Origin: Acholoe squamosa
Taxonomy: Eukaryota; Annelida; Polychaeta; Phyllodocida; Polynoidae
Assembly (NCBI GenBank): GCA_949317995.1
Contig: OX439044.1
Location: 18,004,641 to 18,068,640 of the forward strand
DNA length: 64,000 bases
Direction of reading: 5' to 3'
The notes under the pieces are model-generated. The model was not told the origin of the DNA. It saw only the letters and a program-made list of their open reading frames with translations, and did not search any database. The translations under genes and the position numbers were made by a program. Below, in pieces: positions 32,072 through 55,065 of the stretch. Position 1 is the stretch's first letter; the number at the start of each line of letters is the position of its first letter.

Positions 32072-32860
32072 AGCGTGCGGTTATCCATGGATAACCTGTG
32101 CCCGGTGCGGGTTATCCATGGATAACCACATGCCTCTCATGTCCTTTCATGTCATATGTTACATGTTAAAACCCACGAAATATTCCAGGCCAGGGTAGGG
32201 ATCGAACCTGCAGTCTCACATCCCAAATCCAACTCCCTATGCACTGCGCCACAGGGACTGACGAGAAACGCTCGGTTTCAACCATGTCTGGATATGATAC
32301 AAAGCCATGTGCGCTGTAGCTGTCCGCTGCCGGGCGATGAGGTGTATCATACACAAACATAACTGCGAGACTCATTGAAAGTAGGAGACGCGGTGGCCTA
32401 GCGGTTAGCGCCTTGCGCTCAGCCGCGTGAGGTACGCGGTTCGAGCCCCAGTCCGGGCGTATCTCTTTTGTCGCCGCGTGCGCTGTCGCTGTCCGCTGCC
32501 GGGCGAGGAGGTGTATTTAGTACACAAACATAACAGCGAGACGCATTGAAATCTTTAGCCGTGTGCCGCTGCCAATCCGAGCCGAGACAGCCGCTGTTGC
32601 TGTCCGCTGCCGGGCGAGGAGGTGTATTATACACAAACATAACCGCGAGACGCATTGAAATCTTTAGCCGTGTGCCGCTGCCTGTCCGAGCCGAGACGGC
32701 CGCTGTTGCTGTCTGCTGCCGGGCGAGGAGGTGTATGTACCTGTACACACACCATGGCTGGCTTCGAGTCCCATGGAGGGGGAAAAATTTTTGTTTTCAA
32801 ATTGAATTTATTGGTATTCTATTGATTATTTATTGGTTTTGTGAAATAAAATAAGTAGTC
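32072..32860 (+). mobile_element. Composite SINE-like element, copy A
   Basis: The order is: two copies of the palindrome GGTTATCCATGGATAACC (32079-32096, 32110-32127); a minus-strand tRNA-like unit with a B box GGTTCGATCCC (32198-32208); a plus-strand tRNA-like unit with A box TGGCCTAGCGG (32394-32404) and B box GGTTCGAGCCC (32438-32448); then about three units around CTGTCCGCTGCCGGGCGAGG; and an AT-rich tail with TTTTGTTTTCAA and ATTGATTATT. Copies B (52488) and C (54533) share this layout. Boxes A and B are the internal Pol III promoter of tRNA-derived SINEs. Confidence 0.75.
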
Positions 32861-32865
32861 AATAT

Positions 32866-32924
32866 ATAATTCATGACTCGTGTGTGTTAGCAAAGGCTAA
32901 TAACACACACTCATCATGAATTAT
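32866..32924. repeat. Hairpin next to composite copy A
   Basis: The arms are ATAATTCATGA ... TCATGAATTAT and inside them TGTGTGTTA ... TAACACACA, around a short loop. Not seen beside the other two copies, so it may be the insertion site rather than part of the element. Confidence 0.7.
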
Positions 32925-33093
32925 CCATTGGTAACTTGTTCAATAACTAACGGGTCACTATCCAACGTACAAGTAGAAGTGGAAAAAATGCAGCCTATTC
33001 TATAGTATTTGTACCGTGTTTGTGCTCACTCAAAAAATGGCAGTATGATAATGATCAATTCCATCCTATCTTGTAATCAAAACATCACATTAA

Positions 33094-34020
33094 AACCCAA
33101 TAGCCCAAGTAGCTTTCAACTTACCACTATGGCGACATTTTGGAAACCTGCCCACCGTTTTAGGAGTAACGATAGCAACCACACCTTCCACCCTAAACCT
33201 ACCAAATTTTCAACGTCTTAAAGAACTACACAACCAGAAAGTTTTACCCCTAATTAAAGACCTACTCACCCTTAGAGATGGTGCAGTAAACATCTATGAT
33301 AAATCCACATTATTGTCCACCGATGTAATAACACACCTTGGATATCTATCGCCTTGGGTTTTCCCTGGTTACACCTGTTGTCACCAATCATCGCCATTTT
33401 CTGCTGCATTTTCACGTGGCGTGTGCACATGTGTGTGACACATCTGGCACAGCTCATTACTGTTCAAAGTACTCCCACCATGGCTAACCCCACATCTTGG
33501 ATTAAGCTCAAGAAAATGATAGGTAGCACCTACAGCTTTCCAGTGGGTGATATGATTTATGACAGCAACCTCTGCCCTACATCAATCCTGGCCGCCATCC
33601 TGTCAAAACCACAGCTAACAAAATCATTCGGGCATTACCTGGATGCGCACTGGGAAATGAGCCATCTGACAATGACTCAATACTATCCACCTGAAGAGAT
33701 ACCCAACGTGACCTGGTAATCAAGCAGAAAGGTTTTCAACTGACCCCATCGGACGGGGAAACATCGGCCAGTTCTGCGCAGTTTTACCACTAAGGGCCCG
33801 AGCCACTCCTAAAGTATCTCAGTATCCAACACCTTCATCAAGCACGGTGAAATCTGCTGAGCTGCCCTTATTACATCCTAAAGAAGCTCAGCCTCCAAAG
33901 GATAAATACCTCTTTTATCCTTCGCTGGCTGAGAGGGCCACAGAAACACTGGGTGGTAGGTTTCTTCGACTCAAAATGCTAAATCACAACAGTTTCAGTT
34001 CATGTGTGGATCGTCGCTGA
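33094..34020 (+). pseudogene. Frameshifted coding relic, unidentified
   Basis: Successive plus-strand open segments lie end to end in different frames: 33094-33438, the later part of 33354-33719, 33704-33793 and 33797-34020. Their readings look like protein rather than simple sequence (for example KVLPLIKDLLTLRDGAV, GSTYSFPVGDMIYDSN, DKYLFYPSLAERATETLGG). The pattern fits a gene broken by frameshifts, though an intron-containing gene cannot be excluded. I do not recognise the family. It sits inside the 7.5-kb inverted-repeat element and is probably element-derived. Confidence 0.4.
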
Positions 34021-34160
34021 TCCAACATCGCCATTTTTTCCAATACTACCAACCACCCCTCCCCATTTGCAACATGGACCAGTCCAAAGGTTAAAACAAA
34101 TGTTAGTAAAGCGCACCCATTACACTTATGTGAGGATGCCAGGTACTGTAGCGCGTCCCG

Positions 34161-34220
34161 CCGGATAAAGCACCGGATAAAGCACTGAATAAAGCACCGG
34201 ATAAAGCACCGGATAAAACA
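34161..34220. repeat. 12-bp tandem repeat, five copies
   Basis: CCGGATAAAGCA is repeated five times with one or two changes per copy. The minus strand reads as a CFIR-type four-residue repeat, an artefact. Confidence 0.9.
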
Positions 34221-36096
34221 CACGCTTGTGTGGGGATCCCCCTCCCCACAATGGCATCTTACTCCCCAACCCCAAACTATCTCTAGACCCATCAATTAGG
34301 GTTACCTACCTAACTAATTAACTCTAACATCAGATTAGACCATCAGCTAACCAAAACTAACATAGACAGTTAGATTAAATCAGTGTTGACTTAGCATGCG
34401 CCCGCCGTGGCGTCTAAAAGTTTTCCCGCCAGACGCCACATGCTAAACGCCATCTTGAAATTACACGCAACATAAAAAAGACGTCCATCACACGGTGTCA
34501 CCATGACAACAGCCTGTCACAGGCGCCCACACTTGGTGTGCGCGTCAAAACAACAACAATGACACGTGCTATCACAAGTAAACTTGCTTTCGGTCCATAA
34601 AACCCATCAGTAAACTTTGACCTACCTGATCACCACGCCTTCATCATGGCCGACCTAGCCAGCGGCGCTTGCACATTAAAATGTATCTCAATGATGCTAA
34701 AATGAAACAATTTCCTTTTAGCAACTCAACCAACCCAAAATTTCCTCAAAACTTTTCACCTACCTGTCACCTTTCATATATATATCCAGGTGCAGGATAA
34801 CACCGTTCGGAAATATCAGATCGAAGTAATAGACCTCCATGCTGACGATAACATAACGTTTGACATCCAAAAACGCCGGCAAGTCCTTTTTATACCCCAT
34901 TAAGCCGCGGGAAACAAGCTCCCTAAGGCATTACAACCAAAAACCTATTTTTGGCACAAATGATCAAAATTCGAAATTCCACCCAAAACACAAAATTTTC
35001 AAATTACTTACCTTGATTCATCCAGGAAAAATTCCAGCATCCAACAGCAACTCTAGCTCAATATCAAGCATAATCACGACCACCCTCTTTAACCTTAGCG
35101 ACGCGGCGTTGACTCAGCGTCACCACCTGGTGTGTTGAAGATAAACTAAAAGAAGCATCCTTATTTTATCTATTGACTAAGCTCTATAACTTTGTGATTA
35201 ACTGTCAAAACACTGTTATTCCGCCTTGTAACTGCTAGTCTGCCTTGTATGTCAATATGGTATTAATGTGGACCTCTTGTCAATCATACTGGATGGCTTA
35301 TAATAATATGTGAGCCAGCAAGCAGAAATGGGGGTTTCTGTGGGATTTAGTACCTGTTTTACCCACTAGGGGGCATCACTATGGGCTAGAATAGGAAAAA
35401 TATGCCTAAAACTGTTTTAGGGTACTTTTTCATGGAGAATTCAATGATTTTTGATAAAACGTTCTATTTTGGGGGGAAAGGTTCCAAACAAGGCATGTAA
35501 AAAGAACGTTTTTGGGCCTAAATAGGCATTTTTGTTGATTTCTGTTGCCATGGAAACATGATTGTCATTCCAAATAGGAAAATCAATTATCTCATTTGAA
35601 GGTATGTTTCACCAGGTTTACTATGGTGAAAACAGAATGAAAATACCATTTCTAGTTCAAAAGTTATGGGCAAAAGAATTAAAAAAGTATGCTAATTTAG
35701 CTAATTAGCATAAATTATGCTAATTTTAGATGTATCTCATGACCAATTAGATGTAGAGCCTATTGCCATTCAGGAAATGGTCATAACTATCCATATTTAG
35801 CAAGCCATTCCTCTAAGACTAACAGGAGTATCTTCTCTTGTAATATATCACTGGAAAGCTAGGGATCTGAATTTTAAAGTTGACTTTTAGCACGGAGCAC
35901 CCTTTCTCCTTGCCTCTACACTATTGTCTGAAGGATGTGTCCCTATTTTTGTTCCTCACTCACAAACCAACAGCCAGACGTGGTCCCAGCCCCAGTTGAG
36001 CCTGTAAAGCAATTGTCCTAGCAGGAAGAAAGACACTGAGCCATCCACACTCCCAGTTGCAAACTACCATCAAGACCATCGCACCTCAACCTCTAA
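34221..36096. other. Interior of the 7.5-kb element, no intact gene
   Basis: Contains a hairpin at about 34409-34440 (GGCGTC ... GACGCC), an open frame 34860-35138 without family features, a near X-box GTTGCCATGGAAAC (about 35553), and otherwise AT-rich sequence. Confidence 0.35.
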
Positions 36097-36408
36097 TTAG
36101 AAACCAACAGAAGACCAGGAACACCTATACCACCGAATTACAGAAATTATAACAACAACTTCAGTACTCCAATTCGAGGCCAGACTTCAGCGGCAGCACT
36201 GTGCCAACCATGCTACCACAAGCCAGAGGGTTTTGCTCGCCCTTGTGCCTACAGCAAGACTCTTTTCCCTTGGCTGTCTGGCCTCCAACACTTTTCTATC
36301 CCTTCCAACCATTCATGTGTCAAACCATGCCACCAAGCAATTAGTGCATGGATGATGAAAGTGGCACTGACAGCGTTGACTCCAACACTTCTGAAACTGG
36401 AGACCTGA
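36097..36408 (+). pseudogene. Retroelement gag-tail-like relic
   Basis: A 103-codon open segment without a usable start contains LCQPCYHKPEGFARPCAYSK. The spacing C-x2-C-Y-H-x3-G-x-A-R-x-C resembles the Cys/His tail seen at the end of gag in many animal Ty3/Gypsy-type elements (typically C-x-Y-H-x3-G-x-x-A-x-x-C-x3-C). A short acidic reading in another frame follows (36341-36454), with a frameshift between. The family assignment is tentative. Confidence 0.35.
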
Positions 36409-36719
36409 CCTCTGTGGATCAAAATTTCAGCAACCTGTCTGTGTCCAGCTGTTAACCAGTGAGAAAATGATCAAAAGCCAGGAGAAAGACTGGTGGCCAC
36501 TCGGAAATGATTAATTCAATTTGCATCTATGGCATATAGGTTTACTACCTATGTACAAACCTACTTACACCTGGCTTTGTGGTCACAAAGCTAGGGGCTA
36601 AAAGCACAAGTCAAATTTGTCATAAGAGTGACTCACTACAAAAATAATCACTCTGCTCACACTGACCAGTCACATGGGTTTTGTTTACCAAGTGACCAAA
36701 CCTGCATTTAATCAAAGCG

Positions 36720-36825
36720 CGTTGTTTCCTGGAAGCTCTTCTCACAAAGAACTCTCCACTCTACACACCGAGCTCTTCTCATTACTGACTCTCCACTCTA
36801 CACAGCAAGCTCTTTGACTTTAGGT
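36720..36825. repeat. Short direct repeat, ~50-bp unit
   Basis: GAACTCTCCACTCTACACA(C/G) and AGCTCTTCTCA-like phrases occur twice. Confidence 0.6.
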
Positions 36826-37239
36826 AAATTTGTAAAATTTTAGTAACATTTTTGCTAAAATAAGGTAAATCTTGTGTGTAAAAAGTGGAAACTTTTGTAA
36901 TATTTAGGTAAATTTGTATAATTTAAAAGGTTAAAGGTGTGTTTTAACAAGTACCCTTTGTGAAAAAAAATCAAAAAAGATTGTTAGAACGATGTCTGCA
37001 TTTGACATGTAACTTTTCATGCTTGAGTGTATTAACACCTATATTAACCTTTTTTCTTCTCCATGTTGTCCCTATCAATAGGAAAAATGTTATGATAAGG
37101 GTAGGCGTGCTATGGTAGGATGCAGCATGTAAAAGGTTAATTGAAACATGTTGATAGGGTCATTTATTTTTACAACGTTATGGTGGGAAAATGTTATAAT
37201 TTAGGGGGACAAAAAAACATACTGGTTACTAGATAAAAT

Positions 37240-37644
37240 AGATTAGGTAGGTAGGGTAAGGTAGGGTAGGGTAGGGTAGGCTATGGGGTGGGGGGCACCC
37301 CTTAAGTATTTTGGGGGGAAAGGCCACACACACACACACCCTATATAAACCTACCTACCCTACCCTATTCCAACCTACCCCTACCTACCTACCTACCTAC
37401 CCACCCCCCCCCTGTTGTTAATAATGAACACTCCCTAACATCTGCCATTTTGAATTTAGCCTATCTCTGCGCATGCGCAAAGTCGATGACAACGTATGTT
37501 AAACATCAAACGTTGTCTGCTGTCTGCCATTTTGAATCTTGCGCATGTGCAAAGGCGAGGTCAAAAGGTCACTTCCAGTTTGTAAGTAGGTAAAACGGAT
37601 TTCAGTAGCTGTAGCTATGCGCTGAGTTTACCCCTATATATTAC
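37240..37644. repeat. Right terminal inverted repeat of the 7.5-kb element
   Basis: Inverted copy of 30139-30532. It contains a perfect NRF-1 consensus TGCGCATGCGCA (about 37468) and a second TGCGCATGTGCA (about 37541), each next to a GCCATTTTGAAT block. Confidence 0.85.
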
Positions 37645-40027
37645 TTACAACCTCATCGGCAAACCTCATCAGCAATTCAATTCCTACAAAAATAGTGGAC
37701 TATTGCCATTAGCAAATCTGCGGCCAACGGTCCACTAGTGTGCCCAATGGGTTATATTGATCATATAAGATACTCGGCCTCACAGGCCTTTGATATATCA
37801 TGTTACAAACAGACAAATAGCGGCTAATCATATGCAAATATACTCCTATTTACTTATTTTATAAGTCCTATAGAGTAGGTCTACTATTTAGGCTGTCTGG
37901 AAAATGACCCCAAAACCATGTCTATTGAAGCAAAGGTATGGTTTGAGTAATGAAGTAATGGTATATCATTTTGTGTTCCCTTATTTCATTAAGGATATTA
38001 TTATGCTTGACAGCAATGTTATAGTAATAGTAGACCAAAGTCCGAGCCTTTCCAGACCAGACTATATTGTCCATTGGGGTGTGCACTTTGCCATGCTCAC
38101 GCTGAATACCAAATTGTATAGGCAATGTAATTTACGTAACATGTTGGACATTCAGATCATAATGACTGAAATATTCAAGACGGAAATACGGGTATTATTT
38201 CATAGTGCATAATGTGCATTATATGACGTGTATGTGTGTGTGTTCAAGCATACCTATGTTACCACTAGTAATATAGATCTAAGTGGTCGATGGATTCCAA
38301 AGCCTGCTGAGGAGGAGTGGTGTATGATAGGGTGTGGCATGGTTGGAGTGATACCCGGGCCTATCACCCTTTATTCAGAGTTCACTACTATGAAAAGAGG
38401 CAGGCTTCATTATTTCCGCCCATTAACACAATTACTGTTATTAGAGAAACAAAGAGAAATTCAATGTCTGTGTCTGAATCATCCTTTTGGGATGGCCGAT
38501 AATAGGGTGTATATCATATAGGGCGTTAGTTTTCAAAAGGGAGAGAACATGATGGGCTTCTGATTGCCTCTTCCCAGCAGGCAAGAATTTTAGTTCCACC
38601 TTAGATTAACAACATTGACAAGCCGATTATGAATGTTGTCTTTTTGCTCACTTTATTTTTGTGTGAAAGACAACTACTTTCAGCCTTTTTAAAGATGATA
38701 TAATAGTTGCCCTGGAATATCCTGCCTCGATTGAAATTGCAATATTCGTTTCCATAATATATCCTGAATTGTTTATCCCTTCTCTTTGGCTTTACTTTTC
38801 ATTTGGCATAGATTCATGCTGAGGTGTTCTCATGTCCTTAATATCTAAAGATAGGTGTGTCTAGTACACGCAAATTGTTGCATTCCGTGACACAATCTAA
38901 TGTCTGGGCGCCTCTGGAAACAAGAAGTATACTCTATCGATAAAATATACATATATCCAGATCTGTTCGCACATGCTTCCATATAAATCAAATGATTTCT
39001 TATTCTATCTTTTTTAGCAACAACGTGGTGTCATTACTGATATTTACCATGTCTACTTCCGATGCTAGGAGGGAACTGCTTGAACTTTTGCTCGATAAAG
39101 CTGGTTATAACCAGCTTTATCGAGCAAAAGTTAAATATGCGATAGATCATAATCTGGACGAAAGTTCTTCTATGTTCTTTGTACTGTTCAGGCCAAATGA
39201 TTATAACAAAATAAGACGCTAAAAGAAAAGCATAGTTAAGGCTAGCCGACCTTACCTGGAAAAATAACTGCTTTGGTTGGTTATGACATAATGTCGAAGG
39301 GTCAGCATGATACTTTCATGAAGCTACTTTCAAGATAATGACAGCAAGGCTAGACTTGCTGGGGCTGCTTTTAGTTATCATGGCGACCGATAGGTATGAT
39401 ATTTTAGAGCACCGTGCAGCCCTTAACTGGTTAAAGGTAATTAAGATACCAGCAAATGAAACTGACACGCTAGCGTGGAATCAAGACATGGTATGCAATC
39501 TAAGAGATAACAGGTTAGTTTGTGAGTAGTGGTAGTAGGCGCAATTGAAACAGTTAAGGTCATATCTATACTGATCTATGGTGGGTGATCTTCAAAATAA
39601 ATCTAAATAAATCCATGTCCCCATACCCGAACACTCTCAGCCGCTTTTGTAAATGGGCTATAAAGACCACTGTACTGGGTACAGGGCAATCTACATCGGG
39701 ACATAAGATTTGTACTAACAGTAACTCTTACTGTTTTCCAAAAGTAGAAGCAATCTACTGCAAAACCCTTGCCCCAGTCTAACATTACGGATCCAAACTG
39801 TAAGAGGGGTATAAAAGATTATAATTTTTTATTAAACCTTTTAAAATGTGAATGGAGAAGTAGCTCCTTCAGTCAGTAATGCTATCACAATGCACACAAG
39901 TGATGGTAGCATTCTTCGCATGTACTAGTGTCATGCCTGGTTGTAATTTCTCATCTCCTTTATACAAGACCGTGCCAAATTGCACAAGCAATGCAATTTT
40001 ACAAGTGGTGTATGTGCATATGTTATA
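37645..40027. other. Non-coding or unrecognised short frames; palindrome
   Basis: Several plus-strand frames of 60-102 codons (37904-38212, 38992-39222, 39338-39529) show no domain I can name. A perfect 50-bp palindrome lies inside one of them (listed separately). Phrases at about 39297-39335 and 39375-39410 recur at about 47210-47300 (GGGTC-GCATGAT and ATCATGG-GAC-AT-GGTATGAT), so part of the region is a dispersed repeat. Confidence 0.4.
39083..39132. repeat. Perfect 50-bp palindrome
   Basis: The left arm AACTTTTGCTCGATAAAGCT-GGTTA (25 bp) is followed with no spacer by its exact reverse complement; the centre lies between 39107 and 39108. It would form a cruciform or hairpin without loop mismatches. 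Confidence 0.97.
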
Positions 40028-40213
40028 CAGTCATGTCTCACTTTACCGGCCACCTCTGTTTCAGTTTAAAATTGACTGGTTCCTGAATCGGCTGGTTCTT
40101 TGAATCAGAATTAAATAAAATTCAATGGTTATATTTCAATCTGTTCAGAGAGATTAGTGGTTGGTTAGTGAATCGGCCGACTTTTTGAAGACCAATATAT
40201 TGAGACATGACTG
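40028..40213. mobile_element. pogo/Tigger-like MITE, 186 bp, TA-flanked
   Basis: The termini are CAGTCATGTCTCA and TGAGACATGACTG, a perfect 13-bp inverted pair. TA lies outside both ends (40026-40027, 40214-40215). Inner phrases CGGCTGGTTCTTTGAA / CGGCCGACTTTTTGAA repeat in direct orientation. Confidence 0.85.
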
Positions 40214-41044
40214 TACATCCCCTTATTTCCTATTGTTTGTGGTGAACAGTATGACCCCCACCCACAATCCAAAGGAGAATGATAGAAACTTATATTGTGA
40301 TACACTGAATTATGTGATCACCAGATGCGATGACCTGTCTGACCAGATTAGAGAGGAACTTGTAGAAAATCATTCTGATATTACTCATTGTTGTTTTTTT
40401 ATCATCATTTTCAAACGATTGCATAAATACCCCCTTTCCTAATAAGCAATAGATGATTTATGTAAAACAAATGTCCCTATAGTTGTAACTATAGTCTCAG
40501 TGACAAAATAGGTGTCTATGTTTAAACATGTGTATGCCTTTGCTAATTTTGACCTAATCTTTTTAATCAATTGAGATTCCAGTGTAATAATATTCTTTAC
40601 ATCGGTTATCTTAAAAACACACCTCATTTAGATTATTGATGATGAGAATCAATATGATATCCCACATTGAGATATTGCATATTCTATTGTTGTATACTGG
40701 GGACCCCTGTTGGCAGAAATGTCACCAAAGTGATGACCTAACAAACTCATCATAATTACCTTGGGTCATCAACATGGAAGAAGGACAATACTGAACACCT
40801 TCATAGAGATCTATATTTTCAGTGTAACTAATGGCCCCATCTGGAGACCTTGTTGCTATAGATTCTATGACAGGTTCAGGCAGCTATGACTGGAGATGGG
40901 CCAAATCTTACCAGCTGATCTTAGGATTTTGGCCATAGTGAACAAATAGCTGGCTACATTACTGGGTCCTTAACTGGGTGTTTGATCTAACCTATGCATT
41001 GATTTTGCAAGATTATTTCAATTAATTGTATTGTACATTATATA

Positions 41045-41220
41045 CAGTGAGACCTTGATAGTCCGGTCACCCTTGTTGCAGGCAATTCATGGTTGGATCT
41101 CAAAACAGACGGATTATTGAGGCATATTACAATCGAATTGTTTAAGATTGTTCCAGCCACAGCCTAGCCGGATCCCATGTATGACGGACTATCAGGGGAA
41201 GGATTATCAAGGTCTCACTG
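41045..41220. mobile_element. pogo/Tigger-like MITE, 176 bp, TA-flanked
   Basis: The left terminus CAGTGAGACCTTGATA matches the complemented right terminus perfectly over 16 bp, and the inner GTCC-GG / GGAC-like bases continue the match. TA flanks both ends (41043-41044, 41221-41222). Similar starts of Tigger elements are known in many animals. Confidence 0.88.
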
Positions 41221-41356
41221 TATATATGGACTCCTAGAAAAAGTAAGCAGTATGCAGAATCATGACCATTAACCTTATTGAAAACTATGATCCATTTTCA
41301 TGAGAATTGACCATGCGTATGACCGTGTAACTAGGTGGGATCACCTTTATATAGTT

Positions 41357-43508: not shown

Positions 43509-46154
43509 TATTGTAAGTCCATAAACACTCTCAAAACAGTAAACACATTTCGATATGACTGGGGTCTGTTACTCCAATATGTCATTTCAGGAGAACTTAT
43601 TCATTACAAAGTGAATATAATGTGTTACTCCAGACATAATAGTAAGTCGAAGGGTGGTGCTGATATAAATTATGTCTTTTTGTACTTGTATTAACACAAG
43701 TGCACAAACTTGCATTAAAGCAACTATGTGACTAGAGATAGAGTATAATGAAATACAGGTAACTGTCAAAAATTTGCAAAGATGTCAGTGTATTATGTAG
43801 TTGCAATAACCGAAGTCTAGAATTAATTTAAGTAGTAGTAGAATAATTTGGTAGTTTGAGTCAGGCAACAATTGTTACGATACTTGAAAATGGCAAGTGA
43901 GGTAAAGGTCTTTTAATGTGCCATTATATAAAGTGTTACAATTCAATATAAATGTATTGCTATTCGAATCAACACAATAAAAACGTGCAGGTCATTTCAC
44001 ACAGATATCGGTACCTGAACACATGTAATGGCCAGGGTATGTCCTTGCATATAAATCCTGTTATCACCCTTATTAGTTTTGATATAGTGGAGAGTCTCAA
44101 TACTCATAGCACAATATTCCTAGAAATACCTTAACTATCCAAATAGATCTTACCTCAATACCTCTTTACCACAATGACTTGTGTTTAATAGTAGGTAGAT
44201 TGTGACAAATGTATCCAACAAAATAGAAGACATGACTAGGTGAGGCGTTCGAAAAATCGTGCAAGTATGTCTCATTTTTTGGGCACTTGCAGGCATGCAA
44301 GTCACATTTTTCTGCAATTATGCAGTAAAGTTACTTGTATGGAAACACGAGTTACTAGTATGCAAAGTGGGAAGGAACCATCATACAACTCATTTTTCAT
44401 ACTCACCAAGACTCAATCAGCCTACTTGCCACTAGCATATATATTGAAGAAACAGACCCCTCGTTCTAAATAATTATTGCCAACTTGTGAAACATCCCAC
44501 CTTTTGCTGTTTCATAATAGGCAATTACCAATAGTCATAAAAAAACAATCTCTACAACTTGTGATTATAGTGAACTTCCATCTGTTCTCATCTCAGGTGA
44601 CTCTTACAGATGAATACAATACATATACTGGTCCATTTCTTCTTGAAACATAGAAAATCATTCTTGGTAAGACAAATCTAAAACAACAAATGTTGTCGAC
44701 TCGTGAAACACCCTACTGGAGTAATACAGTGTGGGCGATGGCATTTAGACGTGTAGGTTGCTTTGGTTTTTGATGATTTTCTTTGAAGAGAACAGTTGGC
44801 CATTGTAAGGAACGGTGATAAAGTATATCTTACTCAAAGAGCAGGCATGTATAGGAATCTGCACGCAACACGACTGTTGTTGTGATACATCTTCTACAGG
44901 ACAAAAGAGATGGAGAGGCATGGTGCAAACCACAAGGATTGAGACTTCAAATAGAAATGGAATGGCAATTAGAACCTTGCCTGCATGTGGTATATGTATG
45001 GAAACGATGACAGTTGATAGAAATTTGAAGGACTGTGGCTTCGGGGTGGAGTCACTGAAATTGCGATACTCAATTAATGACAGATTATAGCACCAAAATA
45101 GACATTATAAGGGCAAAATATAATATAGGATCCAATTCCATAACCAGTTTTTGGAATAGATTGATATGTTTCACGACATCATAGCAAACCTTCCCCAATA
45201 GACTGTCTGGTTAAATTGCTGTAATGAGGAACAATTCATTTTTATACCCATTTTCCACTAATACGACATGTTATAACCTAAGAGACAAGACACATTTAAT
45301 TCTGCTTTTGTGACCAAAGGGTCTGGAGGTGAATTCCTATATCGAAGCTTTCTGAAATTTTCATTGAATAGTTTCCAGCTGAAACGTGATAAATTCAACG
45401 GATTTTGGTGGTCATCTTGGAAATTTTGAGAAAACCTTTTGGTCTCAGAAACAGAATTAAAAGTGTCTGGGCTATCAGTGTTGGCGTTACTTGCGAAACT
45501 GCCTTTTGTTCTTATGTAAAATTTATGACAAATGCCTGTTTTGTTTACTTTTCGTTGTCATTTTTTACATTTTATTCATGCAGAACAAATTCTTGCCCAG
45601 TGTCCAAGGAAATGATGACAACAGAGTTGCATTAGTGGAGCCCCAGCTTTAACCTGGGCCTTAAGTGCGTCAAGCTTTATAAATGATTATATGGGTCCTG
45701 ATTTGAACTGTAGAAAATTGTAAATTTCGACCGAGAATTGTTTTGGGTGCTGTATTTCTGACTCTAATTCTATTCAGAAGGACCCTCAAGAGAATGATGT
45801 CCTGCAAGATTCTGCATGTGGGTGTGGCCAAAAAAAATCGTTCAACCCCTAAAGTACTGCTAATGCAATAATACATCATGTTCATTGGCCGTCATGATGC
45901 ATGAATGAAATCCTGGCAAGTAACTTATTCACGGCTACATTCGAACACCATGCCAACAAATTAGTCAATCACATCTATGAAAAAAAAGAGTTATCAGGCT
46001 TACACATGTTTTTTTTTCAAACAATTCTAAAATCATCACTTTTTCCAAATGTTTGCGAAAAATGAAACTTTGGTTTTCATGTGTTCAATAATCTTATATA
46101 ATGTATGCCTATATCTTTTAAAACAATTCAAATTATTTCAAGTATAAATAATGG
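43509..46154. other. Non-coding, nothing recognised
   Basis: Open frames up to 91 codons (for example 44815-45090) have no family features. No strong repeats. Confidence 0.35.
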
Positions 46155-46590
46155 AAACACTTCTTGATCCACAAAGTCGTTGAAAAAAGAGACAAAGGTC
46201 CCTGGATCGTTTGCAGAGACTGCAGAACAGGGCTCTTAGGACCTTCTTCAATACACCGTCAATCCAGTACAGTGTTCATGATTTGCATGAAATGGCAAAC
46301 ACTCCACCTCTTACACGTAGGTGGCATGAGCAAATGTCTCTGATGTACAAAGAGTTCCGTATAAAGCATGGTGTAGCAAAACCAACTGATGAGGCTCCGC
46401 TGAATGATTCAGCAATCAAGCTACGTGTTCCAACTACGGCGACAAAAGAGCGAGAGTTACTGCAAATCACCAGAACACAGAGCTAGTGTGATGTGGAATG
46501 CCCAGCAAAACTGATTAAGAGAAAGTGAGACCAAGTCTCAATTTGAGAAACAGGTGAAAGGTATAGAAAACTTGCGAAAAAAAAAAACAA
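46155..46590 (+). pseudogene. Non-LTR retrotransposon reverse transcriptase, C-terminal remnant
   Basis: The segment reads SLDRLQRLQNRALRTFFNTP at its start, the hallmark region after the fingers/thumb of LINE reverse transcriptases. It continues with a Leu/Arg-rich stretch including MSLMYKEFRIKHG. After a stop at 46484, the usual WNA(LP) and RESETKSQFEKQVKGI tail appears in shifted frames. Upstream (before about 46166) the frame is closed. It is therefore a truncated, frameshifted 3' end, as 5'-truncated LINE copies usually are; the clade cannot be decided from this piece. Confidence 0.75.
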
Positions 46591-47429
46591 CTTAGTACAT
46601 TAAGTGGAACAGAGATGTACAGTTAATCTGTCCTATTGAAACTTTATTTGGAATATTTATTCTTCTGCACTGCATTCCATGTTGTATTTAATGTATTGTA
46701 TTAATTCCCATTAGTGTCTATCATCACCGCGAACTGATATTAACAATGTATAATGTGACTATGTGTTAGTACTAAGACATGGTGTAAGCACTGCGCTGTA
46801 TTGTCACCAGTAAAAACAATTCTGTATTTAGTTTCTTGACATGTTAAGGTTATACACCTGAGAACTTCAATGATATGTGCATATGACTGACTTTACTCAT
46901 CTATCTCATCATTCATTCCTACTTGCATTTCATATGTTTTCACATTGAGTCAGCACAGTTTATTGTTACATCTATATGTCAAATGCCGCAATGGTACATT
47001 ATATGAGTTATCTATAATTATAGTATTATTGTGACTGTTGGTATAATATATGATGTGCTCTACTACTTTGGAGTTAATTACTCTTTTTGGTGAATCGTAA
47101 AAGCACCGGGTATGTTCCATTCTTTGAATGTGTTTATTTCCGAAATAAATGAGTGTTTTGTACACTCACTGAACAAAAAAAATCAAACCTACGGGGTCGA
47201 TACACTCCTGGAGGGTCGGCATGATGCTCCAATGAAGTGCTGGTGAGCAGACTCACCTGCACTTAATAGGTGCATCATGGTGACTAATGGGTATGATGCA
47301 CTCTTGCATCATCGGCTCTTCAATGTTTTAACTATACACACGATTCCTACACCATGCACATCATCACTCTAGTAACCAGAATAATAATCGATTGTGTTCC
47401 CAGAACTATGAAAAAAGTAAAGAAATCTA
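46591..47429. other. Probable LINE 3' tail and unrecognised sequence
   Basis: AT-rich sequence follows the reverse transcriptase remnant. The stretch 47200-47310 is related to 39290-39420. Confidence 0.35.
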
Positions 47430-47532
47430 AAGGGCCACATCCATGTCCCTTAATCCATTTTCCCATAGAAATGAATGATAAATAGAAGATGAAGTCTGGA
47501 TGGTCCATCCATTGGCAGTGGATGCGGCCCTT
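47430..47532. mobile_element. MITE, 103 bp, TA-flanked
   Basis: AAGGGCCACATCCA at the left is matched inversely by TGGATGCGGCCCTT at the right (one mismatch), with TA outside both ends (47428-47429, 47533-47534). Confidence 0.65.
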
Positions 47533-48045
47533 TAGACCTAATGAATTTCACAAGAATTTAATTTCCCCTTTCTCACTTTGAAGCTTGATGAATCCAGCTG
47601 TCACCATTCATCATTCTGGTGATGTTGGCCTAAGTAAACAGTCAATAAATGATCCCTCCACCTCCCCATCCCCTCGTATCAATTCCATTAATGTCTTCCA
47701 TTACTGCCCTCCCATATCAGTGAGCCTACATGTATGGGACATGTACAGGCTTCATGATTGGATCCCAGTCTACTGGTATTGATCATGAGCTATTCATAGT
47801 ATTTATAGGCAGATAGACACGGCATTCCAGAATCCAATACTAGTTGGGTTAGATGTTATCTCAGGAAAAGGGTGAGCCTTAGTGAATGGATTAAGTGACA
47901 ACTTTGTATTTGTGAGTCGTGTATTAGATGGTAGGCCTACACAATTTATTTGGTAGAAAAATACCACCAGTATGCATCCAAAGACAAACCATGTGTAGGG
48001 GAACAGATTTTTATGGAAGGTGTGGATGGAAGGTGGTAATCATAG

Positions 48046-48125
48046 GGCATAGGGCTGTGGTCTAGTGGTATGACACCTATCTATAGGCGTGGAGACCGGG
48101 GTTCGATTCTCCGGAAGTCCAAAAG
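48046..48125 (+). mobile_element. tRNA-derived SINE head, copy 1
   Basis: An A-box-like TGGTCTAGTGGTATGA and a B-box-like GGTTCGATTCT lie at tRNA spacing (48057 and 48100). The acceptor stem cannot pair with a 3' strand, so this is a SINE head and not a tRNA gene. Confidence 0.6.
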
Positions 48126-48495
48126 AAGTTTGTACCTACTGACCTCTACAGTGGAGGAGTTTCGGACTCGCCCTTGGGTTTGGAGAACCTTGGGACACCC
48201 TATCATGTATGGGGTGTCCTAGGTCAGGATAACACAAAGACACTTTGACTGCCCAGTAATTGTACCGGCAGATGATCAGGGAATCGGGAATGCCTCACAC
48301 TGTTTGGTACTGCCCAATCGTCTGGTTGGGAGGAGAGCTGGGTTACTGGTAAACGGTGGTTAAAGCTGGTTGGGAAATGTCTAGGGCGTCGGATTTCCCC
48401 ACACCCGGTAGGCTGACCTGCAGAGGCTGGTTACCGAATGGTCCATCCCTAGCATGTGTTCTACCGATCCAGCTGTGGATAGAAGGTGGTGGGTG

Positions 48496-48578
48496 TCAGG
48501 CACGGGGTTGTGGTCTAGTGGTTGATGCCTGTCTACAGACATGAAGACCAGGGTTCAATTCCCTTAAACTCCAAGCAC
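48496..48578 (+). mobile_element. tRNA-derived SINE head, copy 2
   Basis: A second head about 450 bp downstream in the same orientation, with TGGTCTAGTGGTTGATG and GGTTCAATTCC. Both copies are preceded by GGAT(G/A)GAAGGTGGT, so the repeating unit extends upstream of the tRNA-like part. Confidence 0.6.
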
Positions 48579-49593
48579 CTATAGATATGGGTCACTGGCA
48601 AGAACCCAATCAATATAATTATGACCCATGTCCTCAGATCTACAATCGATAGCTAATTGGTGAACTGTGAGTACTCAGCATGAGAGTGGTCATTATTGTG
48701 AGCCCCAAGATGATGACAATCAGCTATAAATCATGGAATATGATTCTATAGACTTTGCTACTATTGTCCATAGTTGACCCTTGGTCCATGCATTGCTGAG
48801 CATGCGCCTTTCGGAGATTCCTTACATTTGAGATGAATGAATTTGAAATGAATGAATGAACGAATATGTGGATCTTTATCAAATCTATTAGATATTGAAT
48901 AGTGTATTCAGAGGACCTCGTTTTGAAGTAAGGATCCTTGAGAACTCGTAATTGATATAAAGACAGGAGTCTACGAAGCTAAGTTCCAATGTAACTTAAA
49001 GATGGGGGTTCACACTAAATATGCTGAGATCATTGGCGCCACCTCGCAACTAGTATACTGTAGACAAGGAGGAGTGTCTATACTGTAGTAGTAGATATCG
49101 GTCCCTAAATGAGTCTTTTTGGTAAGCCGTTTCTCTATCAGGATTTGTACCGAAAATATGAGAATCAAGGTCCCAGAGGCTAAACATGATATTATAAACC
49201 ATTAGGGCTCATCCCATTATAAATAACCATGTACATGTAATAGCAATATCTAATGTATCTTTTGTTTTACGTGCTAGTATTCCCTAGGTGTAGCGTGCCC
49301 CTGTTAGGAAGCTATCTAATACAGATAATCACAATACAGATAATTATAATTATCAATCTCTGAAGCAGGACTTAGAGGGCAGCACAGGCACCGTCGCACG
49401 CCACATCGCCCCTGATCCTCCCCATAATATCCTAACTAATAATTGCATCAGAGAGTATTATGCATCCATCAGGGACATAGGTCACATCTTGATCACGAAT
49501 CAGTTCCAGGGCGTGACTCTTCAGCAGTTAATGCATGCTCATCAGCATGTAGGTCCTATTACACCAATTTCCAAATTGGTGATTTAGTCTAGC
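48579..49593. other. Non-coding, nothing recognised
   Basis: No gene supported. A small palindrome CCAATTTCCAAATTGG lies just before the next element (49564). Confidence 0.4.
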
Positions 49594-50013
49594 AGATATA
49601 GCATGATTTTGGGCCGACCTTGGCACTTTTGGCAGAAAGCATGAAAGTTTGCACATAGGTTTTTTTTAATATGCTGAATCCATTTCTAAGTGGAAACAAC
49701 ATTTTTGAGAAACGTTTCCCCTTCCAAATTGACTATTATATTGAGTATGATATCATACTCAATATAATATATTCCAATGGGTAACACATGGCTTTTATTG
49801 CCCTTTTGTTTATTTCTCACCCCATTAAATCTTCAATGAATTTAAATGTAATTTAATATGAATTATTTACTTTTTCTTTTCAAAGTCAATTTTGAAAGGG
49901 AAACGTTTCTTGAAAATGATGTTTCCACTTAGAAATGGATTCAGCACGTTCAAAAACCCCTACACGGAAACTTTCATCCTTTCTGCCAAGAGTGCCAAGG
50001 TCGATGCTATATC
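49594..50013. mobile_element. Fold-back element, 420 bp, with ~130-bp inverted arms
   Basis: The left arm AGATATAGCAT ... ACCTTGGCACTTTTGGCAG ... GCTGAATCCATTTCTAAGTG ... AAACGTTTCCC matches the complement of the right arm with few differences. Inside lies a perfect 34-bp palindrome (49735-49768) centred on GATATC. No open frame. Confidence 0.85.
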
Positions 50014-50405
50014 TCCAAACTAATTATAATCAGGGTGATTGTGCATGCCTCTGACCTGCCTCAGAGAAGGACCGTACGTGGTGTTGAAGCATCGTGTCAA
50101 GGTGTTTTTCATTTCTTTTAGATCAACTTAATGTAAACAGGAATTGAATAGAAATAAAACAGGCAACAGACCCGCTGATGTACTCAGTTATACGTATACT
50201 GAATCCATCATCGGAAAAGATTCCTCTAAATTTAGCAAGTCTTTGTAAAGTGAAAGAAAGAAATGAGAAACGGAAAGATAACACTTAGCATTTATATGGA
50301 TATCCAGGCTCCATATTGTATAAAGCCAAGATTCTGTGACTGGCACAGCACGTGGTCATGGGAGGCCGATGATATTGGCATGTCGATCTCGTGAATAAAG
50401 TGGAT
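50014..50405. other. Non-coding, nothing recognised
   Basis: Unique-looking sequence between the fold-back element and the minisatellite block. Confidence 0.35.
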
Positions 50406-50610
50406 CTTATATACACGTCTAAGACGTATATATAAGACACCTTATATTATATATATACGACCGAAGGTCGGTCACAGGACAGGAAGTATATATTATGTAC
50501 ACGTCCAAGGTTGGTCACAGGACTGAGTGTTCAGGGTTGGTCAGAAGACATGTGTTTATGGTTGGTCAGAGGACATGTGTGTACGGTTGGTCAGAGGTCA
50601 TATCGTCGCC
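50406..50610. repeat. Palindrome plus ~30-bp minisatellite (GGTTGGTCAGAGGACATGTG)
   Basis: A near-perfect 31-bp palindrome (50406-50436, core CACGTCTAAGACGT) and a CGACCGAAGGTCG hairpin are followed by four or five units of about 30 bp containing GGTTGGTCAGAGGACATGTG. These units are the reverse complement of those at 53590-53950. Confidence 0.8.
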
Positions 50611-51315
50611 TTAGTGCAAGAAGGTTGTAACTGCATTTTTCAAGTTTTACAGGAGAGGCAAAAGAAGGGTTCCACTTACTATAGCACAAAGCGGAGACAG
50701 CACGATTGCAGTGGTGCCTGTAGGCACAAATATCAGGGACAGAGCTTCAGTACTTTCATAGTAGGTATAGATAAGGGTCAATACAGTCTTTTTTTATTAT
50801 TATACCTAGCATGCGATACACACACAGATTGAGAATAGGAACTCTGTATGCCTTGCAGCGTGGCGTATTCCGTCAACACGCCCATGTGTGGCGTATGGAA
50901 AAGTCTGGGGAAATGTAGTTCCCCTGCACAGCGGAGAGTAGAACTCGCTGCAGTACAACACCGTTCGGTCCACGTACCAAGCGTGTGCTGGTACCCAACC
51001 TACCAGACCTACATGCTGGAAACCAGCGTCGATCAATCCGTCGAGGCATTTGGAGTATGGCCGAGGGATCAATGCTTGTTTGTAAGGCCATCCCCCATTG
51101 GTCCTCCCCATGTAGGTCAATGTTGATCCTGTAGTGAACTTACTACACTACCAAGCCTAGTTAGGGATTGGTACCTAGCCAGACCTGGCTAGGGTGGAAG
51201 GGGGTGGAGGGAACAAGCTAAGGTTGTGTAGTTCGAGGTCACCCCCACCCACAATGCACTGCATATGGTTAGAAAACCGCTGCCCGAACGCCTCGAATGT
51301 ACCAGGCGCGTCCTG
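50611..51315. other. Non-coding, nothing recognised
   Basis: Open frames on both strands up to 104 codons overlap one another and have no family features. Confidence 0.35.
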
Positions 51316-51447
51316 AGGGGTATTCATTAGCCGCACGCCAGCCACGCGGTGCGCGCCACAGGCGCACCTCCTCTCTAGCTGGAGTGCGAGCACGTTCAGG
51401 TCCGGGCGCGCGCCGATGGCTAGGCGTGCCGCCTATTGAATACCCCT
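51316..51447. mobile_element. PIF/Harbinger-like MITE, 132 bp, CTG duplication, GC-rich
   Basis: The left end AGGGGTATTCATTAGCCGCA and complemented right end AGGGGTATTCAATAGGCGGC form ~30-bp inverted repeats. CTG lies directly outside both ends (51313-51315, 51448-51450), a 3-bp duplication as in PIF/Harbinger. The interior is unusually CpG-rich. Confidence 0.8.
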
Positions 51448-52034
51448 CTGGGGCATTTTCACGTGCCCCGATCCGGTTAACCCGGTCGACCGGCTGTACC
51501 CATCTGGCATACACCACGGCTACACCCCGGATGTTCCAGATCAAGTCACCCGGTTGATCGAAGTGCCTCATGCGAAAATTCCCCTGATACCCGCAAAAGA
51601 AGCAGCAGAAATGTTAACTGTCAAACGATAAATGCAGACGCAAGTCGTGATTCTTAAGGAGTCGGCATATTGCAAGCTCGCGAGCATCATTGTCAGAGCA
51701 AATAGCCTCAATGCAATTTTAATAAAATATCATTTTCGGCAAAAGTAGTTCTATGGTGTAGGGACAGTACGAGACAGTATTATTAGGGTTGTTGTTTTTT
51801 TTTTCAAATTCTATAAGAGCTCGGAGTATGTTATCATGGTTTATAACACTGCTGGGCAAAGCCAGAGTGCATTATCCTGAATGCTGCGTTCTGATTGGCT
51901 GATTGACCATGCATTATCTAGATGAATAATGCACTCCCAGCATAGGAGGTCAACTTCATCTCATATTTAAACTTCACAATTGATATTCATATGTTGTCTG
52001 GTGGCTGATGGGTTATTTTTCTGTGTTATAACGA
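51448..52034. other. Non-coding; short ATAATGCAC repeats
   Basis: GTGCATTATCC and ATAATGCACTCCCAGC near 51867 and 51925 resemble the outer arms of the hairpin at 52035-52162, so a related element may be present. Confidence 0.35.
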
Positions 52035-52162
52035 GAATAATGCACTTGGTCATGGCTGCCGTCGTGCTCTAGACTGTATTGAGACATCTTGGGGCCTATA
52101 AGGCCCCTCAATGTCTCAATACAGTCTAGAGCACTCCCACAGCCATGCCTCGTGCATTATTC
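52035..52162. repeat. Long hairpin, 24-bp perfect arms within a 128-bp fold-back
   Basis: GTGCTCTAGACTGTATTGAG-ACAT (52064-52087) is exactly inverted at 52111-52134. Inside, GGGGCC-TATAA-GGCCCC extends the stem. Outside, GAATAATGCAC / GTGCATTATTC and CATGGCTG / CAGCCATG extend it further with small bulges. Confidence 0.92.
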
Positions 52163-52487
52163 CCTAATTGTACGGCCTTATGTATCTGGTTCGAGATTAA
52201 TCCTAGATCACATGACCACGATGGGTGGCACCATGTGACTACGCTGACTCCTTGATGTCACATGCCAACCAAATCCCAAGGGCGGACTGGAATATACCAG
52301 TACCATATATAGATCTATACCCAGAGATATTACACGACCTTTGTGATTTTGGGTGCTTTTTCTGGATATCCCAGTTCTGATATTCCTGCATATTGTGCGA
52401 CCCCTTATGAGCAGATCCTTAGTGGATATCAGAACTCTTTGAGGTGGATATCAGCATGGTATGGGGTGGATATCAGCACTCCTTGTC

Positions 52488-53251
52488 CATGTCACATGTC
52501 ACATGTCACATGTTAAAACCCACGAAATTTTCATGGCCAGGGTAGGGGTCGAACCTGCAGTCTCAGATCCCTAATCCAACTCCCTATGCATTGCGCCACA
52601 GGGACTGACGAGAAACGCTTGGTTCGAACCACGTCTGGATATGATACAAAGCCGTGTGCGCTGTCGCTGTCCGCTGCCGGGCGACGAGGTGTATTCTACA
52701 CAAACATAACCGCGAGATGCAGTGAATGGAGGAGACGCGGTGGTCTAGCGGTTAGCACGTTGCACTCAGCCGTGAGAGGTCCGCGGATTGAATCCCGGCC
52801 TGGACGCGTCTTTTTTCGCCGTGTGCGCTGTCGCTGTCCGCTGCCGGGTGAGGAGGTGTATTCTACACAAACATAATCACGCGAAGCATCTTTTTTCGCC
52901 GTGTGCGCTGTCGCTGTCCGCTGCCGGGCGATGAGGTGTATTCTACACAAACATAACTGCGAGAAGCATCTTTTATCGCCGTGTGCGCTGTCGCTGTCCG
53001 CTGCCGGGCAAGGAGTTGTATGTATCGATTGTACACAAACATAACAGCGAGACGCATTCAAAGCAAGCCAAGCCGAGACCGGGGCTATCGCTGTCCGCTG
53101 CCGGGCGCCGAGCTGTGTGTACCGATCATGTAGAAACACTATGGCAGGCTTCGCGTCCCGGGGAAGGATTTTTGTTTTCAACTTTTTTTATTGATATTCC
53201 ATTGATTATTTATTGATTTTTTTATTGATTAATCGTGTAATAAACTAAGTA
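52488..53251 (+). mobile_element. Composite SINE-like element, copy B
   Basis: Same order as copy A: minus-strand tRNA-like unit (B box complement GGGGTCGAACC near 52546), plus-strand tRNA-like unit (TGGTCTAGCGG near 52741, GGATTGAATCCC near 52784), four to five units around CTGTCGCTGTCCGCTGCCGG, and the AT-rich TTTTGTTTTCAA ... ATTGATTATT tail. The paired GGTTATCC palindromes are missing; CACATGTCACATGTCACATG repeats stand in their place. It has more internal units than copy A, so the array length varies between copies. Confidence 0.75.
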
Positions 53252-53439
53252 AGGTGGCCTACGGCCACTCGTTACGATATCCTACGATACATGCCATTCG
53301 GTGCCTGTTAGCCCATACATTACTTAGTTAATATCTTTTGTCCCGGTTTCCAAAAGTTAGAGTTCCAAGAAAACACATGATTCTTGAATGTGTGTGTGTA
53401 TCGTATGCTAGGTATGATAAATCCAAATCCACACTCAAG

Positions 53440-53495
53440 AGTACTACAAGTACGGGACTCTCGACCTTCCGTCTCGAGCCCGTACTTGTAGTACT
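53440..53495. repeat. Hairpin with 17-bp perfect arms
   Basis: AGTACTACAAGTACGGG (53440-53456) is exactly inverted at 53479-53495 around a 22-base loop. Confidence 0.92.
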
Positions 53496-53589
53496 ACGCT
53501 CATGGACGTACTGGGGTCTGTATGCTCTCTGGTGTAGATTTTGGACAGGGCTAGTCTCAGGACATATATGTTTTAGGGCACGGTACTGT

Positions 53590-53950
53590 GACCCACCCTA
53601 ATTAGATCTGTTACCTACCCTAATGTGTTTTCCTGTGACCTACCCTAAGCACACACTGAGATATGTCCTGTGACCAACCCTAAACACATATCCTGTTACT
53701 TACCCTAAACACATACTGGGATATGTCCTGTTACCAACCCTAAACACATATCCTGTTACTTACCCTAAACACATACTGGGATATGTCCTGTTACCAACCC
53801 TAAACACATATCCTGTTACTTACCCTAAACACATACTGGGATATGTCCTGTGACCAACCCTAAACACATATCCTGTTACTTACCCTAAACACATACTGGG
53901 ATATGTCCTGTTACCAACCCTAAACACATGTCCTGTAACCAACCCTTAGT
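53590..53950. repeat. 60-bp (2 x 30) minisatellite, about five copies
   Basis: ACACATACTGGGATATGTCC recurs at exactly 60-bp intervals near 53709, 53769, 53829 and 53889. Each 60-bp unit has two related halves (CCAACCCTAAACACATATCC and TTACCCTAAACACATACTGG). The half-unit is the reverse complement of the unit at 50480-50610. Confidence 0.92.
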
Positions 53951-54532
53951 ATGTGTACATAAGAACCACTATATACACGTCGAATACATGTATATATCGC
54001 CGGCGGTCATGGCCGCATTATATTGTAATTCACCTGTATATTTTAGACTAGTGAAAACACGCTTTTAACATGTGATTGACGCCCTATGTGATCTAGTATT
54101 GCCTAAGAGGTGGCCCAAGAGGTTTTGAAATTATAGTATCGGGTATTATTGTGTATTTTGTCATACCTAGGGTTATGAATACCACATAATGGCTGTCTTC
54201 ATCCTAACAAAACCCCTCATATTTGCATGGGTTAGCCAGTACTCTTAGTCCTAGTAACACCTTTTTAGAACGTACTTTCGCGAGAATCTATATGCAAGGG
54301 AAGCCATTTCCAATGACCTGACATAGTTATGGAGATATATAACTTTCCATCTGCTGACAAATGTCTATTATTAAGCGATAACAAGTGCACACAGCCAACA
54401 GCTGTATGTATAGTACGGTCCATAACACCTATACCGTCCCTGGTTATTGAACTTCGCCTCCGAGTTGCTTGTTTTTGTTGGCTAACAGTCACAAGTCATG
54501 ATATATCCATTAACTACTTATTTTATTACACG
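53951..54532. other. Non-coding, nothing recognised
   Basis: Begins with TATATACACGTCGAATACAT, related to the palindrome beside the 50.4-kb array. No gene. Confidence 0.35.
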
Positions 54533-55065
54533 ATAATCAATAGATAATCAATAAAAAAATCAATAAATGCAAGTTGAAAACAAAAATTATACAAGATTGG
54601 TACACACACCTCGGCAGCCGTTGGTTTGGTCTGAACCCATCCCGCAGTCGTTGCGGACAGCTAGAGTGAAAAAAAAATATATGCCCGGACCGGGACTCGT
54701 CCCGCCTACCTCTAGTGGCTGAGAGCAATGCGCTAACCACTAGACCACAGGGCGACACACCTCCAGGCCCGGCTTGGCTTGGGTTGGTTTGAATGCATCT
54801 CCGTTATGCGAAAAAAATATACGCCCGGACCGGGACTCGTCCCGCCTCCCTCTACAATCTAACCAAGCAAACACACCGTTTCTCGTCAGTCCCTGTGGCG
54901 CAATGCATAGGGAGTTGGATTTGGGATCTGAGACTGTAGGTTCGACCCCTACCCTGGCAATGAAAAATTTCGTAGGTTTTAACATGTAACATATGACATG
55001 TAAGGTGTGAATGTTATCCATGGATAACCACACTGGGTGCCTGTTATCCTTGGATAACCACACAC
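54533..55065 (-). mobile_element. Composite SINE-like element, copy C (inverted)
   Basis: Read on the minus strand it has the layout of copy A: paired palindromes GTTATCCATGGATAAC (55013-55028) and a one-base variant (55043-55058); the first tRNA-like unit (plus-strand orientation, 54885-54965, B box GGTTCGACCCC); the second tRNA-like unit (minus strand, 54680-54760, A box TGGTCTAGTGG) plus a partial extra copy (54818-54865); and the AT-rich tail (54533-54600). The internal GC-rich units are reduced. Confidence 0.7.

Follow-up and report, generated by a model that had tools for sequence, protein, structure and literature searches.

A 64,000-nucleotide stretch of the Acholoe squamosa genome (contig OX439044.1, positions 18,004,641 to 18,068,640), referred to here as the window, carries three copies of a composite element in which two promoter-like heads point away from each other within a body of GC-rich repeats. 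An earlier note on this DNA had placed the copies at 32072, 52488 and 54533 (the last inverted), and all three were found there with the part order and orientation it had described, namely a head on the minus strand and one on the plus strand, then GC-rich units measuring about 80-110 bp and an AT-rich tail, together with paired palindromes in two of the three (seen in copies 1 and 3, absent in copy 2). The location was right, but the bounds had to be moved: the element starts approximately 100-160 bp further out on the 5' side and passes the AT tail on the 3' side. The element is probably one of an abundant, non-autonomous family of the rolling-circle type (HUH, Helitron2/Helentron-like) that carries two divergent RNA polymerase III (Pol III)-type cassettes in a minisatellite.

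Copy 1 spans 973 bp on the plus strand (31970-32942), its ends being the alignment limits common to the other copies, with TTA at -10 to -8 of the 5' flank and ATAA as the 3' flank. It opens with an asymmetric terminal inverted repeat, TTATTCCACAA (31970-31980), and about 100 bp inward of this terminus the paired palindromes form one larger inverted repeat with 24-nt arms that are 92% matched (32073-32133). The minus-strand cassette (32168-32262), whose positions were read from the sequence and which the A/B box scan did not detect, comprises an A-box-like stretch at 32235-32251, a B box at 32199-32209 and a run of four T (T4) at 32168-32171. A GC-rich unit (32305-32369) separates it from the plus-strand cassette (32384-32469), placed by reading and by the box scan, with its A box at 32394-32404, B box at 32438-32448 and T4 at 32466-32469. 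Thereafter follow, all on the plus strand, tandem GC-rich units of period 109 (32481-32736, from Tandem Repeats Finder, TRF), a third B-box-like stretch leading into the AT-rich tail (32746-32838), the 3' partner of the inverted repeat, TTGTGAAATAA, with one mismatch (32839-32849), and a 3'-terminal hairpin (32850-32942) whose arms, 32850-32889 and 32901-32940, are 78% complementary.

Copies 2 and 3 have diverged relative to copy 1, and their ends, placed by reading against copy 1 and the flank motif, are less sure than those of copy 1. Copy 2 (52327-53330, plus strand, 1,004 bp, without the paired palindromes) has ATA at -10 to -8 of its 5' flank and ATAT as its 3' flank; its 5' repeat ATATTACACGA (52327-52337) has the partner TCGTGTAATA at 53233-53242, both sides being altered in comparison with copy 1. 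Its minus-strand head lies at 52522-52616 and its plus-strand head at 52728-52816, ending in a T6 at 52811-52816. GC-rich units occupy 52809-53116 (TRF array 52809-53021), and the AT tail, 3' inverted repeat and 3' end fill 53136-53330, where only short outer arms, AACTAAGTAA/TTACTTAGTT, were read. Copy 3 (54448-55169, minus strand, 722 bp) keeps the 3' flank ATAA and has a 5' flank that is off the motif; it contains a plus head at 54672-54748 (window minus strand) with a partial second one at 54812-54852, a minus head at 54878-54973 (on the window plus strand since the copy is inverted), and paired palindromes at 55013-55067. TRF run on the window reported no array in copy 3. In copies 1 and 2 the plus head belongs within the repeat array, since a GC-rich unit of about 65 bp also stands between it and the minus head.

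The whole assembly (1.48 Gb, 63 contigs) was searched with copy 1 (query 32072-32760), and 40 of the 5,233 first-look candidates were scored; such candidate counts are not copy numbers. Besides copy 1 itself, the near-full-query matches among these 40 best places show 79-89% identity. Because matches away from copy 1 are as strong as E 1e-259, the order of the parts is not the product of chance. Thirty-eight stretches around the matches were fetched (designated by L numbers), and 25 copies from the first 20 stretches and the window were aligned; the aligned copies also share about 100 bp 5' of the palindromes and the hairpin 3' of the AT tail. The copy scripts made no use of L001-L008, which are the same places as copy 1 and L009-L015, and the copy counts exclude L078 and the 2-kb stretch L077. 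In this search, as in the 3'-end and plus-head searches below, the best-scoring loci were used, so the sample leans to copy-1-like copies.

The linkage of the parts was examined with a query of the 3' end only, chosen to avoid selecting loci by the interior of the element. Of 2,076 candidates, 40 were scored and 30 loci cut out, one of which (L047) proved to be copy 1 and was dropped. Among the other 29, both heads are present in 24, the minus head in 25, the plus head in 26 and the 5' end in 25, and the series 5' end, minus head and plus head occurs in order in 22, which bears out the genome-wide family with head-to-head heads and a variable repeat body that the earlier note had proposed. The exceptions are two loci without a head (L055, L070), one with the minus head only (L071), two with the plus head only and no 5' end (L062, L069), and two with both heads and the 5' end absent (L053, L066); given that the sample is nearest to copy 1, the share of complete composites may be lower among old copies. 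The same note had held that independent occurrence of the two heads across the genome would speak for chance nesting. For the plus head this was not seen: a search with it alone (1,705 candidates, 40 scored, 43 rows listed) led to six newly fetched hits, all six within the composite. For the minus head the evidence comes from the element-selected loci, a sample biased to the element, in which 0 of 72 minus-head hits and 1 of 75 plus-head hits lack at least two other kinds of part nearby. Plus heads can also be amplified together with the repeat units, as in four matches at 169-bp steps on contig C15 (40308508-40309099) and in L034, which has two plus heads, and L038 holds one head-to-tail pair of elements with abutting ends. 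Median identity of the parts to the consensus ranges from 81 to 96%, the minus head standing at 95.7% and the plus head at 87.5%.

Both ends of the element are fixed. It starts with TTAT[A/T]CCACGA, the 5' end reading TTATACCACGA or TTATTCCACGA, and finishes with TTGTTCA, while the reverse complement of the 5' 11-mer recurs at position 839 of the consensus, where it immediately precedes a hairpin reaching the last bases. In the 43 copies whose repeats match two patterns, the pairing is perfect in 28 and has no more than one mismatch in 40; position 5 of the repeat co-varies, being A/A in 33 copies, T/T in 10 and mixed in none, and shuffled re-pairing equalled the observed match in 0 of 2,000 trials, a figure that is not a probability since the copies are related. 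Copy 2 has a different and yet self-matching pair, TATTACACGA with TCGTGTAATA. The hairpin measures about 130 bp in the consensus and 93 bp in copy 1, and folds strongly (-44.5 kcal/mol, z -12.5 in L018). A similar arrangement occurs in L034, which holds a nested 413-bp element from a different family; in it, TTATACCATGG is paired with CCATGGTATAA and followed by a long hairpin of its own (z -10.5); the tip GGCCTACGGCC is common to this hairpin and that of the main family, and the arms differ.

Some further observations concern such hairpins. Just upstream of copy 2, at 52051-52147 of the window, lies a strong foldback with 47-nt arms (85%) and the tip GGGGCCT...AGGCCCC, similar to the 3' hairpins of this class and perhaps the end of another member. 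The 3' hairpin together with the same 3' flank is repeated three times in L011 (221-1268) and twice in L012 (811-1572), looking as if end and flank had been copied again.

The flanks of copies with strict ends (57 at the 5' side and 66 at the 3' side) define a target preference of WTA-N7|NTAW. At the 5' side, T occupies -9 and A occupies -8 in 52 of 57 flanks each, A/T occupies -10 in 46 and T occupies -7 in 34; at the 3' side, T is found at +2 in 63 of 66, A at +3 in 59 and A/T at +4 in 61, the positions further out being near background. Window copies 1 and 2 fit this motif on both sides, and copy 3 on its 3' side only. The earlier note had named target duplications as a mark of a family, and these were not borne out: of the 45 flank pairs, defined by ends 300-1,600 bp apart within one stretch, 44 show no duplication of more than two bases, the adjacent two bases agreeing exactly in five. 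The single pair that agrees over 4-12 bases does so at even lengths only and looks like a simple repeat. A 10-bp duplication, which the TA at -9/-8 had brought to mind, was rejected, the flank pairs showing none bar that one exception. In the four cases where the undisturbed target is readable (twice in a tandem array in L010, and once each in L034 and L039), the flanks join precisely, with zero bases gained or lost. Since the target and both junctions all carry TA-N8/9-TA, with the TAs about 10-11 bp apart, the enzyme appears to pick targets that resemble its own nick sites, a target choice that we infer from this likeness.

The cases in L034 (reverse complement 966-1378) and L039 (1622-2457) are other elements beginning TTATACC that have inserted into the 5' region of the family itself; both sit at one self-target, ATATCTGTCG|ATAT (or the reverse), in opposite orientations. 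The former has a matched inverted repeat and hairpin, whereas the latter has neither but holds an A/B-box unit. At L020 (1367-1433) and L044 (2062-2129), a bare 5' end of 67-68 bp stands directly before a full element at the self-target, with no sign of the remainder of the outer element beyond the full one; recombination between the two could explain this.

The two heads differ in how well they match a Pol III promoter. A consensus scan for A and B boxes over the 38 loci and the window (4 hits in the real window against a mean of 0.4 in shuffled windows) returned 48 hits, made up of 29 plus heads, 11 of the third B-box-like stretches that sit before the AT tail, 8 places outside the element and no minus head. 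The plus head has a canonical A box and B box, and the aligned heads keep the box regions. Its B box is variable, one position being off consensus in 62%, with a usual alternative that still fits GWTC, and the plus heads of some copies may consequently be dead. The minus head has a perfect B box and an A box that is not canonical and is rejected by the scan. T-runs were counted behind heads with strict boxes only (33 plus heads of 75 BLAST hits and 43 minus heads of 72, decayed heads being excluded). All 33 plus heads have a run of at least four T within 70 nt past the B box, and 31 have at least five T within 30 nt, compared with 5.5% of random 30-mers. The minus heads have a T4 within 70 nt in 42 of 43 cases, 36 of them at 30-31 nt, although in AT-rich sequence a T4 over a span of 70 nt carries less weight as evidence than what the plus heads show. 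With T-runs about 20-30 bases beyond the B boxes, a full-length transcript from a head is not to be expected.

The term "tRNA-like", under which the heads had been reported, rests on the promoter boxes (A and B in the plus head, B in the minus head). ARAGORN found no tRNA gene in the window, and cmscan returned no tRNA for any of the three copies up to E 5, none at the gathering score in 20 other loci and none at E up to 10 in L024 (1640-1960). The reading of the element as a tRNA gene was rejected accordingly, and as no tested model folds the heads as tRNA, the term should be read as "tRNA-promoter-like". The minus head may resemble tRNA-Arg and the plus head tRNA-Glu. Both look like compact Pol III cassettes, this being surer for the plus head. 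Elsewhere in the window, a tRNA-like sequence at 48504-48573 gives the sole Rfam gathering-score match (tRNA, 29.5 bits) and is not recognised by ARAGORN, and another tRNA-like sequence starts at 48057.

Taken together, the fixed ends, the asymmetric repeat beside a 3' hairpin and the clean insertion suggest that the element works like, and probably belongs near, the Helitron2/Helentron elements, without being filed as a member. In such a scheme, a Rep/helicase from another element would nick the 5' end ahead of TTAT and the 3' end behind TTGTTCA, with the 3' hairpin as the terminator, and would join the freed strand into targets like its own nick sites, in which one TA stands on either side at a spacing of about 10 bp. 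If active, the cassettes would give a pair of short RNAs, roughly 80-110 nt long and running in opposite directions; they would be passengers or local openers of chromatin or DNA rather than the copying route. Rolling-circle machinery exists in this genome, given that 87 of 98 candidates match Helitron_like_N (Rep), many with long open frames. Two such matches lie about 7 kb apart in the same direction at C15:53781540-53789163, and upstream of its Rep part the open frame of the second matches Herpes_teg_N and DUF6570 as well. This Helitron (C15:53.78 Mb) was considered as a partner and rejected: in L078, between the two matches, the one TTATACC falls within an open frame, and inverted repeats of 14 exact bases are absent. 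Downstream of Rep in three other Helitrons (L079-L081) there is no TTATACC, and the one GGTATAA (L081) has no inverted repeat there, though the true ends may lie outside these stretches.

A number of points weigh against the rolling-circle reading with its Pol III-type cassettes. None of the four Helitron stretches read (L078-L081) is an autonomous element with these ends. The target motif matches neither the TT of Helentrons nor the AT of Helitrons given in the papers cited here, the 3' hairpin greatly exceeds the 5-10 bp of described palindromes, and the 5' terminus forms no hairpin (z -0.21 and 0.90 in the two copies folded as DNA). No matching inverted-repeat pair was found in window copy 3, and neither it nor copy 2 shows a 3' inverted repeat of at least 18 nt. 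Nested in L039, the 836-bp element starting with TTATACCACTA has neither an inverted repeat of at least 9 nor a long terminal hairpin. To these are added the absence of minus heads from the box-scan hits and of tRNA covariance matches. The lack of a long terminal hairpin in window copies 2 and 3, as well as in the element within L039, shifts some weight from the rolling-circle class to a recombinase.

That recombinase would be of the tyrosine type found in Cryptons, the family being its non-autonomous dependant and a circular form recombining with a TA-N8-TA target. In its favour are the lack of target duplication, the TA-N8/9-TA retained at both junctions and a target with TA on both sides that is palindromic in outline and accepts either orientation at the same site (L034, L039); but an asymmetric inverted repeat beside a 3' hairpin is the described signature of Helitron2 and Helentron (PMC3627910, PMC4067079), and we regard the Crypton-type explanation as unlikely. 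Quite unlikely, in our estimate, is a separate lineage that inserts without duplication and is defined by the 5'-TTAT, asymmetric repeat, long hairpin and TA-N8-TA, in which the opposed Pol III cassettes would be a working part, for example by keeping the donor DNA open or by making short RNAs that guide the mobilising protein to its own family. Far less credible than either is the SINE (short interspersed element) interpretation, with two tRNA-derived heads and a variable number tandem repeat body copied via RNA by a LINE (long interspersed element). It has in its favour the A and B boxes at the plus head, the B box at the minus head and the 8 of 48 box hits that fall outside the element in the stretches read. 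It is contradicted by the two fixed ends with their co-varying repeat and strong hairpin, by the 44 of 45 flank pairs without duplication and by the T-runs about 20-30 nt past the B boxes; moreover, the element reaches some 400 bp upstream of the plus head, outside any Pol III transcript from that head.

A different objection disputes the cassettes and not the class of element, so that its odds overlap with those of the rolling-circle reading. The heads could be inert, captured SINE fragments in a HINE-like element, untranscribed and with motifs that persist as the copies are young, a view that strikes us as quite possible, if short of probable. It would accommodate the missing tRNA fold, the failure of the minus head in the A/B scan, the variable plus-head B box and the general nearness of the parts to the consensus. 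It sits less well with the T-runs kept after nearly all counted heads and with the minus head being among the better-kept parts. A/B-box units are also present in the L039 nested element and in a stretch of L031 finishing in a 3' end of the same type; these two anecdotes speak against inert heads and hint, without proof, that Pol III-type cargo recurs in such elements.

Other features of the window stand apart from the element. Between copies 2 and 3, at 53631-53936, a 60-bp tandem repeat occurs five times with CCCTAA stretches. Of the eight open frames of at least 150 codons, four were scanned for protein families and three gave no match at E 0.01. The 631-codon frame at 12359-14254 (minus strand) has no Pfam match at that threshold. 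A 680-codon frame at 56031-58070 (minus strand), about 0.9 kb from copy 3, has ankyrin and ion-transport matches below the Pfam cut-offs, as would suit an animal genome.

Pol III promoters are a hallmark of SINEs, and tRNA-derived SINEs have heads with A and B boxes, so that tRNA-like heads are easily misread as a sign of retroposition and could mislead automatic SINE annotation. The present family differs from those SINEs in lacking target duplications, in a 5' end fixed far upstream of the heads and in its likely internal terminators; despite the Pol III-type heads, its ends, target and missing duplication point to transposition at the DNA level, probably by a rolling circle. The clean target motif, with two TAs one helical turn apart, gives a handle for seeking the nuclease. 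Canonical Helitrons (Helitron1), with 5'-TC, CTRR-3' and insertion between A and T, are not matched by an element with 5' TTAT, 3' TTGTTCA and another target.

Asymmetric inverted repeats, a 3' hairpin, insertion without duplication and central tandem repeats together make up the signature described for Helitron2 and Helentron/HINE elements (PMC3627910, PMC5148889, PMC4067079, PMC7492417). The HINEs, including DINE-1 and Cg_HINE of oyster (PMC4067079, PMC7492417), resemble the family in being non-coding, with an inverted repeat of 11-15 bp that is terminal or subterminal, a 3' palindrome, central tandem repeats and no target duplication; the described ones insert preferentially at TT or in T-rich sequence and their 3' palindromes are short, whereas here the site is WTA-N7|NTAW and the hairpin about 130 bp. 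The word tRNA is absent from the main text of the oyster Cg_HINE paper, and no report of tRNA-like heads in Helentrons or HINEs was found among the titles and abstract beginnings listed from an open-access library, a search that left Repbase and Dfam uncovered. Helitron2 (PMC3627910, PMC5148889) shares with the family the asymmetric inverted repeat, whose 3' copy stands immediately before the 3' hairpin, and the 5' T, but its inverted repeat forms a 5' hairpin, as the 5' terminus of the family does not, and its targets (TTTT|T or C; TNAT|T or A in Fusarium) are different. Whole Helitrons in tandem are mentioned in the Helitron2/HINE literature and may be compared with the abutting pair in L038. 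Replitrons, which according to a review have direct repeats and make duplications, do not fit the family. In the Arabidopsis tRNA-Cys cluster (PMC10701932), tRNA sequence likewise lies within units annotated as Helitrons; those are tRNA genes of a single cluster for which Helitron programs gave no reliable prediction, whereas the present family is dispersed, has defined ends and contains no intact tRNA. That an element can bear a Pol III promoter and yet be moved by other machinery is already known from long terminal repeat (LTR) elements, in TRIMp3 (Helenus, Ajax and Cassandra; PMC10886601), which are similarly non-autonomous, carry the promoter of a small-RNA gene and are moved by the machinery of another class. 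They are LTR retrotransposons, Helenus and Ajax making duplications of 4-5 bp where the present family makes none, and the family has two units, which are opposed. If our reading is true, it would extend the TRIMp3 principle from LTR elements to DNA transposons.

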